Below are positions 36,396-40,792 of a stretch of DNA of 64,000 nt, piece by piece. Position numbers and translations under genes: made by a program. Where the stretch lies: positions 796,416-860,415 of the forward strand of contig NZ_DS990556.1 in assembly GCF_000155635.1 (NCBI RefSeq), given 5' to 3'. Numbering within the stretch: the stretch's first letter is position 1; every line of letters starts with the position of its first letter. The stretch comes from Cyanobium sp. PCC 7001. Lineage in GTDB: Bacteria; Cyanobacteriota; Cyanobacteriia; PCC-6307; Cyanobiaceae. The notes below the pieces were generated by a model that made no database searches, was not told the origin of the DNA, and saw only the letters and a list, made by a program, of their open reading frames with translations.

Positions 36396-36422
36396 GCGTC
36401 CCCTCCGGATCACCACTTCTCC

Positions 36423-36448
36423 GCGGTTCCTGGATCCTCAGGAACCGC
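36423..36448 (+). other. Strong hairpin between cbbS and csoS2
   Basis: A 10-bp perfect inverted repeat, GCGGTTCCTG with CAGGAACCGC, and a 6-base loop (GATCCT), 27 bases after the cbbS stop. The next bases are C-rich with no T-tract. It may partly terminate transcription or protect the cbbLS 3' end, giving far more RuBisCO and CsoS1 than scaffold. Confidence 0.65.
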
Positions 36449-36606
36449 ACCCCTCCCCGCCGCAGGTCTGACCCCCTGGCCGTGAGCCCAGCCGTTCACA
36501 GCCAGGGAGCCAGACAGTCCGTTACCAGAGCCCTCCAGCCCCCGTGCTGCCGGCCCTGATCTCGGAGCTGCGGCCTCACCACAGCGACCTTCGACGACGG
36601 GCGGAC

Positions 36607-39033
36607 ATGGCCAGCACATCCAGCCGGGAAGCAGCACTCGAGCGCCGCCGGGCCCTCACCAACGGTGGCAAGAAAGCCGCAAGCCGGTTCATCTCGAGCC
36701 CGAGCCGGGTGCGCACCGCCGCCGATGTGCGCCTCAGCCGCCCCGCCGGCCAGGCAGCTTCTGCGGCCGCCTCCAGTTCCCAGGCGCCCCCAGCCCAGGC
36801 CGCTGCCCCCAGTTCCTCTTCCGCACCCCGCGGCCGCAGCGGCCTGAGCCTCAGCGCCCCCGAGCCGGGCCGCCGCAGTGAGCCCAGGCGCGTGATGAAC
36901 CGCAGCCGGGAGCTGGTGCTGGCCCGCCGCGAGGCCCTCACCCAGAAGGGCAAGCGGGCCGACACCTCCCGGGACCGCACCCGCACGGATCTGGGCCGTG
37001 AAGTGACCCGGGGTACCGGCTCGCCCGCTGCCGCCCAAGCCCCGGCCCAGGCCGCGCCATCCGCCGAGAAGCCATGCGGCTGCAAGGACCGCAGCAACGA
37101 CGCTCCCGGCCTGAGCCTCTCAGGTGGCCGCGGCAGCACAGGCCGTAGCCAGGCCTCCCAGCGCCCCTCGAGCCGTCGGGTGCAGGCCCAGCACAACCCC
37201 AGCCGCGCGCTGGTGCTGGCCCGCCGCGAGGCCCTCTCCAAGCGCGGCAAGTCCGCCAACGCCCCCACCAACAGCACGGCCGCGTCCGTGGCACGGCAGG
37301 GCAACCCCGACATCAGCACCCGCGAGCTCGCCCAGAAGGTGCGGGAGCTCAAGGCCCGGGTGGGCAGCGCCGGCTCCAGCCGCAGCGGCTGCACCCGCCC
37401 CACCGGCCCGAACCGCCACGGGGCCCGCCAGGCAGCCGCCGCCGACGCCCACTGGAAAGTGGGCATGAGCGAAACCAGTTCCGGCCAGGTGGTGACCGGC
37501 ACCCAGGCCAACCGCTCACCCAAGACCACCGGCAACGAGGCCGCCACCTGCCGGGCGATCACCGGCACCGAGTACCTGGGCGCCGAGGTCTTCCAGACCT
37601 TCTGCCAGAGCGAGGCGCCGCGGCTGCAGCCCGCCAAGGTGCGGGTCACGGCCACCACCCACGGCAACCGGGTCACCGGCAACGAGGTGGGCCGCTCCGA
37701 AAAGGTGACCGGGGATGAGCCCGGCACCTGCAAGAACGTCACCGGCACCGAATACGTGTCGGCCAACCAGTCCGCCAGCTACTGCGGCAGCACCAACCCC
37801 AGCCCCCGCAAGGTGGGCCGCAGCCAGACCCTGGGCGGCCAACCCGTTTCCGGCGTGCTGGTGGGCCGCTCGGAGCGGGTCACCGGCGACGAGCCGGGCT
37901 CCGGTCTGCAGCTGACCGGCGACCAATACCTGGGAGCCGAGCCTCCCGCGCCGGGCCGGGCGCCCAGCAAGGTGGAGACCCTGCAGACCCTGCGCGGCAC
38001 CGGCGTCACCGGCACCGCCGTGGGCCGCAGCGAGCGGGTCACCGGCGATGAGCCGGGCAGCTGCCGGATCATCACCGGCGACGAATACATCGGCACCCAG
38101 CAGTACGAGAGCTTCTGCGGCGTCAGGCCCGCACCCGAGGCCGCCAAGGTGGGCTTCAGCGTCACCAACCGGGCCCAGGTGGTGAGCGGCACCCGCACGG
38201 GCCGCAGCGAGAAGGTGACCGGCGATGAGCCCGGCACCTGCAAGGCCGTCACCGGCACGCCCTACGCCGGTCTGGAGCAGGCCTCCGACCACTGCCCCAC
38301 ACCCGCCGTGCGCACGATCCGGGATCGCACCCCGGTGCGGGGCTCGAGCCGTATGAGCGGCATCCAGCCGGGCATCGGCGGCGTGATGACCGGCGCCGAG
38401 CGCGGGGCCTGCGAGGCCGTGACGGGCACTCCCTACGTGGGGGCCGACCAGCTGGCGGCCGCCTGTGGCGCCGCCAGCAGCGGCGACGCCGATTTCCCCC
38501 AGCCCCTCGAAACCGCACCCTGGCAGCAGTTCAGCGTGCAGTCGCCGGCCCGGGCCGCCCAGATCGCCCGACAGTCGAGGTCGGGCGTCACCGGCAACAG
38601 CTACGAGCAGGGGGGGAGGATCACCGGCCCTTTCGACATGGCCGGTGACAAGGTGACCGGCACCGAACAGTTCCGTTTCGACCGTCGGGGCCCCCAGCTT
38701 TCCCGCGGTCCGATCCAGACCAGCGTCATGGCTGCGGCACCGGTGAGCGTCGATGAAGACGCCAGGCCCACCTCCCGGGTGACCGGGGAGGGGATCTCAG
38801 CCGGACTCAAGATCACCGGCGATGACTGGGATCGGGGCGATCGGGTCACCGGCACCGAAGGCAGCTCCGCCCGGCGGCGCAACCCCACCCGGGTGGGCCC
38901 GATGAGCGCGATGCCGGGGTTCCAGCCGAAGCGCAACGATGAGGTGCCCGAACCGGTGAGCCGGGTCACGGGCTCCAGCGGCAACACCCAGGCCGGATCC
39001 CTGATCACGGTGTCCGGCGGCGCTCGCGGCTGA
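36607..39033 (+). CDS. csoS2: Carboxysome assembly scaffold CsoS2
   Basis: 808 aa, intrinsically disordered linker between RuBisCO and shell. The N-region has three clear RuBisCO-binding helices near residues 6-22, 100-119 and 199-218 (SREAALERRRALT, SRELVLARREALTQKGKRAD, SRALVLARREALSKRGKSAN) and a divergent fourth near 234. The middle region has six repeats starting near 285, 344, 402, 455, 515 and 570, built on VTG/ITG triplets (GRSEKVTGDEPGTCKNVTGT), mostly with a Cys pair; repeat three has none. The C-region starts near 639 and ends with SLITVSGGARG, the shell anchor. Start: ATG 36607 beginning MASTSSREAAL; a GTG at 36544 is unlikely. Contains a possible -1 frameshift element at 38610-38648. 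Confidence 0.97.
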   Translation: MASTSSREAALERRRALTNGGKKAASRFISSPSRVRTAADVRLSRPAGQAASAAASSSQAPPAQAAAPSSSSAPRGRSGLSLSAPEPGRRSEPRRVMNRSRELVLARREALTQKGKRADTSRDRTRTDLGREVTRGTGSPAAAQAPAQAAPSAEKPCGCKDRSNDAPGLSLSGGRGSTGRSQASQRPSSRRVQAQHNPSRALVLARREALSKRGKSANAPTNSTAASVARQGNPDISTRELAQKVRELKARVGSAGSSRSGCTRPTGPNRHGARQAAAADAHWKVGMSETSSGQVVTGTQANRSPKTTGNEAATCRAITGTEYLGAEVFQTFCQSEAPRLQPAKVRVTATTHGNRVTGNEVGRSEKVTGDEPGTCKNVTGTEYVSANQSASYCGSTNPSPRKVGRSQTLGGQPVSGVLVGRSERVTGDEPGSGLQLTGDQYLGAEPPAPGRAPSKVETLQTLRGTGVTGTAVGRSERVTGDEPGSCRIITGDEYIGTQQYESFCGVRPAPEAAKVGFSVTNRAQVVSGTRTGRSEKVTGDEPGTCKAVTGTPYAGLEQASDHCPTPAVRTIRDRTPVRGSSRMSGIQPGIGGVMTGAERGACEAVTGTPYVGADQLAAACGAASSGDADFPQPLETAPWQQFSVQSPARAAQIARQSRSGVTGNSYEQGGRITGPFDMAGDKVTGTEQFRFDRRGPQLSRGPIQTSVMAAAPVSVDEDARPTSRVTGEGISAGLKITGDDWDRGDRVTGTEGSSARRRNPTRVGPMSAMPGFQPKRNDEVPEPVSRVTGSSGNTQAGSLITVSGGARG
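38610..38648 (+). promoter_or_regulatory. Candidate -1 programmed frameshift element in csoS2
   Basis: In the csoS2 frame the bases read CAG GGG GGG AGG, so G GGG GGG (38610-38616) fits the X XXY YYZ slippery rule. Four bases later a perfect 9-bp stem (TCACCGGCC 38621-38629 with GGCCGGTGA 38640-38648) closes a 10-base loop. A -1 slip adds EDHRPFRHGR and stops at TGA 38646-38648, giving about 680 aa, ending at the start of the C-region. Such a shift is known for csoS2 of Halothiobacillus neapolitanus. The stem may also be a by-product of ITG/VTG codons. Confidence 0.5.
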
Positions 39034-39040
39034 TCGGCCC

Positions 39041-40792
39041 ATGCCCCGTCGTACCAACCGCCCCAGCACAGCCGCACCGCTCGCCCCCACGGCGCCGCGC
39101 CGACGCCCTGGCGTGGTCGAAGCTCAGCGGGGTCCCGCAGCGGCTGGCGCAGAGGCGGCCGAACCGGCGCCGCCGCTGCGGGGCACCCGAGCCCGCGCCG
39201 CCATGCAGGCCTCCCGCACCCCGGCGTCCCCGGCCGCGTCCCGGCCCGTCGGGCGACGCAGCTCCAGACCCGGGACAACGGCTAGGCCGGCCTCCGCAAC
39301 GGTCCGGCCGCCGCGGGGCTTCAGCAGGTCCGCACCGGCCGCCTCCACCCCAGCCGCGGCCCGGAGCCTTCGCGCCAACCGGTCCCGGCTCCATCCGCTC
39401 ACGGATGCATCCGCCAACGACGCCCTGCACGCCTACGACACCGCGGTGAAGCTGGCGTTCGATCGGATCGTGCCGGTGCTCAAGCGGCTCTCGGCCCTGC
39501 AGCACGAGGATGACTTCGTCGGCCGGGCCCAGGCCATCGCCCTCGAGGAGCTGGGCTTCCCCCTACCCGAGCCGATCCTGGACACCGCCTGGGTGAGCCA
39601 GCTGGACATGCGCACCCTGTACGCCTGGTGCGTGTTCGAGACCTACGAGCAGACGAGCGAGGCCTTCTTCCGCGACGACCCCCTCCAGGGCCAGCCGGGC
39701 AGCCCGTCCGCCGAGGCCTTCGATCGCTTCCTGCTGGACTGCGGCTTCCACCTGCTGGACATCACCCCCTGCGCCGATGGCCGCCTCGCCCATGCCATCG
39801 GCTTCGGCCTGAGGCTGCCCTTCAGTTCGGTGCGCCGCCGCCCCCACGCCGGCGCCCTGTTCGATGTGGAGAACACGGTGAACCGCTGGGTGAAGACCGA
39901 GCACCGGCGCTACCGCGAAGCCCAGCCTAATCCGGCCCATGCCGACACCCGCTACCTGAAGGTGGCGCTTTACCACTTCAGTTCCCTCGACCCCCAGCAT
40001 GAGGGCTGCGCCGCCCATGGCAGCGACGACGCCCTGGCGGCATCGTGCGGCCTCAGCCGGCTCAAGGACTTCCAGCAGGCCGTGGAGAACAGCTTCTGCT
40101 GCGGCGCCTCCGTGGACCTGCTGCTGATGGGCATCGACACCGACACCGACGCGATCCGGGTGCACGTGCCCGGCATGGACGGCAGCACCCGCCTGGATCG
40201 CTGGCTCGACGCCCGGGACGTCTACGACGCCACCCTGGGCCTGCCGCCGGATCAGGCGAGGCAACGGGTGAGTGCCCTGGTGCAGGAGGCGGCCGCGTCG
40301 GTGCCCGACCCTGGCATGGTCACCCTGGTGGCCCGGCTGTTCGAGCACAACATCTCCCAGATCGACTACGTGCGCCAGTTCCATGGGGGCGCCTACGACG
40401 ACGCCGGCCATGCCGAGCGCTTCATCGGCGTGGGCATCGGCTTCAAGGAGATCCACCTGCGCAACCTCACCTACTTCGCCTACATGGACACGGTGGAAGA
40501 GGGGGCCGCCGATCTCGACGTGGGCGTCAAGATCTTCAAGGGGCTGAATGTGTCCCGGGGACTGCCCGTGCCGGTGGTGGTGCGCTTCGACTACCACGGC
40601 CAGGTGCCCGGGGCGCGGGACCGGGCGGTGCGCCACTGCCAGCGGGTGCAGACCGCCATCGAAAGCCGCTACCCCGAGCTGTTCCAGCAGGGGCTGCTGC
40701 ACGCCCTGCTCACGGTGCGGGACCAGGATCGGCACACCCCGGCCGAGGCGGTAGGTTCCACCATCGTGTTCGCAACCGGAGGAGGGCACTGA
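39041..40792 (+). CDS. csoSCA: Carboxysomal carbonic anhydrase CsoSCA (CsoS3)
   Basis: 583 aa. Converts bicarbonate to CO2 inside the carboxysome. The first 125 or so residues are Arg/Pro/Ala-rich and disordered (RRRPG, RPVGRRSSRPG), the part known in other species to bind RuBisCO. The catalytic domain has LLDITPCADGRLAHAIGF: Cys244 with Asp246 and Arg248 as the C-x-D-x-R dyad of this family, and further Cys/His in DPQHEGCAAHGSDDALAASC. NSFCCGASVDLLLMGIDTDT and the pseudo-repeat C-terminal domain follow. It starts 7 bases after csoS2. Confidence 0.96.
   Translation: MPRRTNRPSTAAPLAPTAPRRRPGVVEAQRGPAAAGAEAAEPAPPLRGTRARAAMQASRTPASPAASRPVGRRSSRPGTTARPASATVRPPRGFSRSAPAASTPAAARSLRANRSRLHPLTDASANDALHAYDTAVKLAFDRIVPVLKRLSALQHEDDFVGRAQAIALEELGFPLPEPILDTAWVSQLDMRTLYAWCVFETYEQTSEAFFRDDPLQGQPGSPSAEAFDRFLLDCGFHLLDITPCADGRLAHAIGFGLRLPFSSVRRRPHAGALFDVENTVNRWVKTEHRRYREAQPNPAHADTRYLKVALYHFSSLDPQHEGCAAHGSDDALAASCGLSRLKDFQQAVENSFCCGASVDLLLMGIDTDTDAIRVHVPGMDGSTRLDRWLDARDVYDATLGLPPDQARQRVSALVQEAAASVPDPGMVTLVARLFEHNISQIDYVRQFHGGAYDDAGHAERFIGVGIGFKEIHLRNLTYFAYMDTVEEGAADLDVGVKIFKGLNVSRGLPVPVVVRFDYHGQVPGARDRAVRHCQRVQTAIESRYPELFQQGLLHALLTVRDQDRHTPAEAVGSTIVFATGGGH

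Follow-up and report, generated by a model that had tools for sequence, protein, structure and literature searches.

We postulate that many alpha-cyanobacterial genes for the carboxysome scaffold CsoS2 carry a -1 frameshift cassette, that the copy in Cyanobium sp. PCC 7001 is degraded, and that a run of seven G residues (G7) in that copy belongs to the SD-like part of the cassette; sequence comparisons make this reading likely. The anatomy of the element, a bias in codon choice, the co-occurrence of its parts, and the absence of the heptamer from a MED4-like gene were observed directly in the genes compared here.

In the proposed cassette, located in C-region repeat 1, an SD-like purine run precedes C CCU UUU at Pro675-Phe676, which is followed by 6 nt and a 9-bp hairpin. 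Held in place by the hairpin and by SD contact, the ribosome would let its Pro and Phe tRNAs re-pair from CCU UUU to CCC UUU, with UGA as the next codon. The product of about 676 residues (CsoS2 1-676) would retain the middle repeats and the N-region, which binds Rubisco. It would be without the final 132 residues, which form most of the C-region that anchors CsoS2 to the shell, much as in proteobacterial CsoS2A. We infer the slipping itself, its frequency, and the role of the product from these patterns.

The csoS2 gene of Cyanobium sp. PCC 7001

The window, a 64,000-nucleotide stretch of contig NZ_DS990556.1 that was analyzed as a whole, contains csoS2 from an ATG at 36607 to a stop codon ending at 39033. 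The 808-aa product matches Pfam CsoS2_M (E 2.6e-204), and its residues 633-808 match solved CsoS2 C-domain chains. The Rubisco subunits of the window are identical to PDB 7YYO (large subunit to chain A, 470/470; small subunit to chain B, 113/113), and its carbonic anhydrase agrees with 8THM at 460/461 aligned residues, with only the first residue differing. Published passages assign the 7YYO and 8THM proteins to Cyanobium sp. PCC 7001 (PMC10689251, PMC11086599). The features of the gene discussed below are as follows.

36607 to 39033, forward strand: csoS2, alpha-carboxysome scaffold CsoS2, 808 aa, identified by its translation, Pfam CsoS2_M, and a sister gene (L003) that is 94% identical
38610 to 38616, forward strand: G7, in-frame G GGG GGG at codons 669-670, read as SD-like part and not as slip site
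38611 to 38619, forward strand: SD-like GGGGGGAGG, separated from the heptamer by 8 nt, with anti-SD pairing of codons 667-672
38628 to 38634, forward strand: candidate slippery heptamer C CCT TTC (CCCTTTT in 76/159 genes, CCCTTTC in 10/159)
38641 to 38661, forward strand: downstream hairpin GCCGGTGAC-AAG-GTGACCGGC, 6 nt past the heptamer, with one G-G mismatch (38647/38655)
38646 to 38648, forward strand: TGA in the -1 frame, which would end a short product at 680 aa
38621 to 38648, forward strand: 9-bp stem of the original prediction, with most of the heptamer in its loop and a 3' arm that overlaps the downstream hairpin

Because of that overlap, the 9-bp stem and the downstream hairpin are mutually exclusive. 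The heptamer, which encodes part of the peptide ITGPF(D), lies 11 bases past G7. A slip at the CCCTTTC of the window would meet a -1 stop four codons on, adding Arg-His-Gly-Arg and terminating at the UGA that also closes the G7 frame, so that the product has 680 residues both ways. Since its heptamer contains UUC, its hairpin has a G-G mismatch, and its stop is not immediate, we read the PCC 7001 cassette as decayed; it is probably silent or very weak. A short product in this strain could still lie below gel detection or be kept out of carboxysomes.

Rfam gave no element at the site and one sub-threshold match elsewhere in 36400-39300. An internal start at ATG 38638 was also considered and dropped; this codon is 18 nt from the G-rich run and is CTG or TTG in many relatives.

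Sample of related genes

All 13 genomes of the genus yielded csoS2, as did 363 of 400 from the family, and a genome collection supplied 80 loci. The loci taken represent part of the family matches, including 80 further places, and are a sample rather than the whole family. Before any counts were made, we removed four loci: two that duplicate the window gene and two that are partial. The resulting 191 sequences, including the window, gave 159 distinct csoS2 genes, which were aligned by codon. We divided these into a GC-richer set (137 genes with GC3 ≥ 0.5) and an AT-rich set (22 genes). Genes with an in-frame CCCTTTY are called carriers (86/159, 83 of them with GC3 ≥ 0.5); 54 non-carriers have GC3 ≥ 0.5. 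The proteobacterial csoS2 comparison covered two plasmid copies plus one Candidatus Thiodictyon gene.

A candidate slippery heptamer at Pro675-Phe676

The heptamer C CCU UUY stands in frame at codons 675-676 in all 86 carriers, reading CCCTTTT in 76 genes and CCCTTTC in 10, the window among them. Elsewhere within the 159 genes, no other in-frame CCCTTTY was found, and the next most recurrent heptamer column comprises 31 genes. In 76/76 CCCTTTT genes, a -1 slip on C CCU UUU GA would place UGA straight after CCC UUU.

Codon usage does not account for this pattern in the GC-richer set, where the CCT TTT pair occurs in 75/137 genes compared with 4.6 expected from each gene's own usage. It is the most deviant codon pair past the first ten codons (534 columns). 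Each codon also stands out singly in these 137 genes: Pro675 is CCT in 86 (20.8 expected; z 16.2, next Pro column 3.7), and Phe676 is TTT in 89 (28.0 expected; z 13.6, next Phe column 7.6). When clusters at <80% identity were each represented by one gene, CCT TTT was retained in 21/39 genes versus 0.96 expected, with a maximum of 6 in 20,000 simulations. A likelihood ranking of 592 columns put Phe676 2nd and Pro675 19th, and other csoS2 columns deviate strongly too. Among the 22 AT-rich genes, CCT TTT occurs less often than expected (2 versus 7.2).

A general codon-pair bias as the source of CCT TTT was ruled out for the Cyanobium genome itself and for carrier loci. The ORFs of that genome contain 196 Pro-Phe pairs, of which one is CCT TTT and seven are CCT TTC, and the genes flanking csoS2 at 21 carrier loci have CCT TTT in 3/90 Pro-Phe pairs. 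In the flanking genes of 40 non-carrier loci, AT-rich Prochlorococcus among them, the count is 16/118.

On a FastTree tree, the carrier state requires 17 changes (12 forced by starred branches), compared with 52.8 in shuffles. CCT675 requires 14 changes for its 86 copies, whereas other Pro columns mostly change once per one to two copies. A pairwise scan for synonymous conservation ranked codons 674-684 2nd of 674 scan windows in carriers, a result of little weight since the carriers had been chosen by the heptamer; in non-carriers, the scan window starting at 674 ranks 400th of 680. Over codons 660-692, the PCC 7001 gene and L003 share 30/31 amino acid-identical codons, which is equalled by 37/775 scan windows, and the same comparison with L004 (18/28) is nothing special.

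Some other csoS2 codon columns showed patterns of their own. At codon 630 (38494-38496 in the window), an in-frame TTTCCCN is present in 31/159 genes, with TTT for Phe in 52/110 (z 7.6) and no near -1 stop (median, 47 codons). An in-frame A AAA AAG appears at alignment column 151 in 10 genes, accounting for 10 of the 11 AT-rich or similar rows, with a -1 stop following a few codons later; this heptamer may be due to chance in AT-rich DNA. We also detected a strong codon bias just past the start, at codons 5-10 (window 36619-36636), where codons 8-9 are GAA GCA in 76/101 genes versus 3.9 expected.

Hairpin and SD-like sequence are enriched with the heptamer

In relatives, the hairpin takes the form GCCGGTGAC-AAG-GTCACCGGC, with 9 bp starting 6 nt past the heptamer. 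Among genes with GC3 ≥ 0.5, all nine pairs can form in 44/83 carriers (4.3 expected from recoding) and 1/54 non-carriers (0.8 expected). In 56% of 86 carriers versus 2% of 54 non-carriers, the hairpin is more stable than in recodings (p<0.05). The energy cut for a strong hairpin is missed by 32/86 carriers, which include many marine Synechococcus that form a block.

Relative to recodings, the six codons upstream pair more strongly with the anti-SD sequence in carriers (mean z -1.35) but not in the 54 non-carriers (0.01). Within the window, GGGGGGAGG at codons 667-672 beats 99% of 200 recodings in anti-SD pairing (p 0.01). Arg671 is encoded by AGG in 33/86 carriers (2.7 expected) and 0/54 non-carriers, and AT-rich non-carriers mostly have AGA. 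The SD-like motif is absent in 22/83 carriers. Mann-Whitney p values for the hairpin and the SD-like sequence ignore relatedness and are not taken as proof.

With a simple SD motif as the measure, all three parts are present in 39/83 carriers, and none of the three in 48/54 non-carriers. The association persists after clustering at 80% identity, with the hairpin in 18/24 carriers and 1/15 non-carriers and the SD motif in 19/24 and 3/15, respectively. Tree-aware tests were mixed and significant for the SD motif alone. Independent tree pairs linked the heptamer with the SD motif in 6.7 same and 0.0 opposite cases (median p 0.016), with the hairpin in 3.8 and 0.0 (median p 0.125), and with AGG/AGA at codon 671 in 4.1 and 1.0 (median p 0.375). 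For CCCTTTT alone with the hairpin, the figures were 3.8 same and 2.6 opposite (median p 1).

One alternative is that CCCTTTT, the SD-like run, and the hairpin serve to slow the ribosome or make it pause when it reaches the C-region, for the sake of folding, assembly, or mRNA stability, and that no frameshift takes place. The retention of the parts at synonymous positions would be expected under pausing as well, and the loss of one part in some carriers fits it. Pausing needs no perfect in-frame XXXYYYZ heptamer, though, nor does it account for the immediate -1 stop in the 76 CCCTTTT genes, and we consider this explanation unlikely.

It is quite unlikely that the pattern has no function at all and reflects inherited codon choice, together with Thr-Gly and Ala-Gly codons (ACC GGC, GCC GGT) that form inverted repeats. 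The clustering of carriers on the tree and the deviation of other csoS2 columns from usage are both in keeping with such an origin. Against it, the codon pair is in excess among genes of <80% identity, CCT675 has been retained along long branches and changes less often per copy than most other Pro columns, and the complete hairpin is rare in recodings of the same peptide.

The G7 run

The original prediction placed a -1 slip on G7 itself, and the letters are as it described: an in-frame G GGG GGG, a 4-nt spacer (AGGA), and a perfect 9-bp stem, TCACCGGCC / GGCCGGTGA (38621-38629 / 38640-38648), with a 10-nt loop. Reading in the -1 frame from G7 gives GGEDHRPFRHGR*, that is, a stop after ten codons with EDHRPFRHGR as the last residues. 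The computed product has 680 aa, which bears out the predicted length of about 680 of 808. The claim that it ends exactly at the start of the C-region was loose; the match to C-domain chains starts near residue 633.

The combination of G7 and stem is uncommon, yet it is one among many noticeable ones. In-frame XXXYYYZ heptamers number five in the csoS2 of the window. When csoS2 was recoded 1,000 times with its protein sequence preserved, 0.6% (own codon usage) or 9% (genome usage) of the recodings contained an in-frame G7, 0.1% combined G7 with a 9-bp stem 1 to 10 nt on, and 0.3 to 0.7% had any heptamer with such a stem. G7 runs are rarer in the window than expected (21 versus a mean of 74 in dinucleotide shuffles). 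We counted 14 in-frame G7 runs in 260 ORFs picked mechanically from this genome, 0 of them with such a stem. A count of 108 heptamers with stems in genome ORFs was an artefact, as 104 lay in a single ORF composed of masked N. The 84 nt 3' of G7 did not fold in any unusual way (z -0.79).

Whether related csoS2 genes keep G7 had been suggested as a check, and they do not. The run is present in 3/159 distinct genes (the window, L003, and L057), and 47 genes encode Gly-Gly at this position, using a variety of codons. It is broken by synonymous changes in close relatives: L004, the second closest gene to that of the window in the tree, has GGA GGC, and L037 and L040 have GGT GGC.

That PCC 7001 makes a 680-aa CsoS2, with the peptide SGVTGNSYEQGGEDHRPFR as its expected mark, by slipping on G GGG GGG with help from the stem at 38621-38648 is very improbable despite the rarity of the combination in recodings and the identical letters kept in sister L003, and G7 was rejected as the slip site on its poor conservation and on reports of a single CsoS2 form in this strain (PMC6120970, PMC9314367), its 4-nt spacer also being short.

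G7 is probably a component of the SD-like stretch within a three-part element and not the frameshift site itself. A -1 element that would end CsoS2 at this place, as predicted, is strongly indicated in many relatives, with its parts reassigned: C CCU UUU would be the heptamer, a second hairpin farther downstream would take the place of the 9-bp stem, and the G-rich run is better explained as an SD-like part.

CsoS2 forms reported in cyanobacteria

For PCC 7001, the published protein evidence, as far as the cited passages go, is against a visible short CsoS2. One paper describes CsoS2 in Cyanobium carboxysomes as a single isoform and the gene as lacking a frameshift motif (PMC6120970), and another reports full-length CsoS2 only (PMC9314367). 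Purified carboxysomes of MED4 are reported to contain one CsoS2, of length 765 (PMC4499774). In our sample, L219 is identical over 164 residues to the solved 765-residue Prochlorococcus CsoS2. This MED4-like gene reads A CCT TTT and has no slippery CCC, in line with the one CsoS2 reported for MED4 (PMC4499774).

In the passages cited, reviews disagree on csoS2 frameshifting in cyanobacteria. One states that the slippery sequence is absent from many cyanobacteria (PMC12312397), and one that MED4 and PCC 7001 do not frameshift (PMC12918739); a third credits a 2016 paper with frameshifting in Synechococcus WH7805 and Prochlorococcus MIT9313 (PMC13370225). WH7803 (L088) has CCCTTTT followed by a 9-bp hairpin, and the frameshifting credited for WH7805 and MIT9313 is possibly due to this very cassette. 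Given that credit, the novelty of our proposal is partial. The parts of the literature searched yielded no description of CCCUUUU or of an SD-stimulated site in csoS2.

A 792-aa CsoS2 in our sample (L208) is probably that of Prochlorococcus MIT9313, for which PMC4499774 gives 792 aa. Its gene reads T CCT TTT AAT, with no slippery CCC and an immediate TAA in the -1 frame, although MIT9313 is listed as frameshifting (PMC13370225).

That over half of the sampled csoS2 genes keep their own cassette and make an anchorless short CsoS2, with the PCC 7001 copy degraded and MED4 having none, seems to us somewhat better than an even chance.

Comparison with known systems

The -1 frameshift of proteobacterial csoS2 is documented for H. 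neapolitanus by Chaijarasphong et al. 2016 (via PMC5009743, PMC11365436). As described in the cited passages, it occurs in middle repeat 6 (PMC11365436), gives a short CsoS2 of 570 of 869 aa (PMC5009743) with a -1 tail of three residues (PMC5009743, PMC11365436), and has no apparent SD stimulator (PMC5009743). The proposed cassette resembles the proteobacterial one in its gene, its -1 direction, its heptamer with, in many carriers, a hairpin, and a predicted short CsoS2 that lacks the shell-anchoring end. The likeness to proteobacterial CsoS2A drawn in the original prediction does not extend to position, as the cyanobacterial site lies in C-region repeat 1 (codons 675-676 of 808) and the H. 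neapolitanus site in middle repeat 6. SD-like sequence is enriched at the cyanobacterial site, unlike in H. neapolitanus, and CCCTTTT would add no -1 residues, unlike the three in H. neapolitanus and Nitrobacter hamburgensis.

The Nitrobacter hamburgensis plasmid csoS2 (L218) has C CCA AAA at codon 568 of 891, followed by the -1 tail ILR and a stop; the cyanobacterial heptamer is CCCUUUU instead of CCCAAAA. Past codon 568 of L218, CCGGTGAC can pair with GTCACCGG, and these resemble the cyanobacterial hairpin arms. In the one Candidatus Thiodictyon csoS2 gene, the position of the cyanobacterial heptamer reads GGG CCC TTC.

The E. coli dnaX cassette combines an SD stimulator, a heptamer, and a hairpin, with termination about one codon after the shift and a short product (PMC5009743). 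The proposed element is similar in that the heptamer is often preceded, at a distance of about 10 nt, by an SD-like sequence and, in many carriers, followed by a hairpin, and in its predicted product without C-terminal domains. It differs in gene and heptamer (A AAA AAG in dnaX), and no common origin is implied. CcmM of beta-carboxysomes likewise provides long and short scaffold forms from one gene, but its short form is truncated N-terminally (PMC13370225).

Implications for carboxysome biology

CsoS2 forms are reported to influence carboxysome size and assembly (PMC13370225), and having a single csoS2 product is cited as an advantage of PCC 7001 for constructing carboxysomes in plants (PMC6120970). 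The cassette could let one gene yield both a full and a shortened scaffold protein. If our reading is true, many alpha-cyanobacteria would have a second, anchorless form, and conclusions drawn from model strains would not generalize. The rule of one form in cyanobacteria would then rest on PCC 7001 and MED4, one with a degraded copy and the other with none. Strains that keep the cassette and strains that have lost it would then differ in carboxysome size or in how Rubisco is packed, and this natural series of intact, lost, and half-degraded copies would offer a way to test what the short form does.
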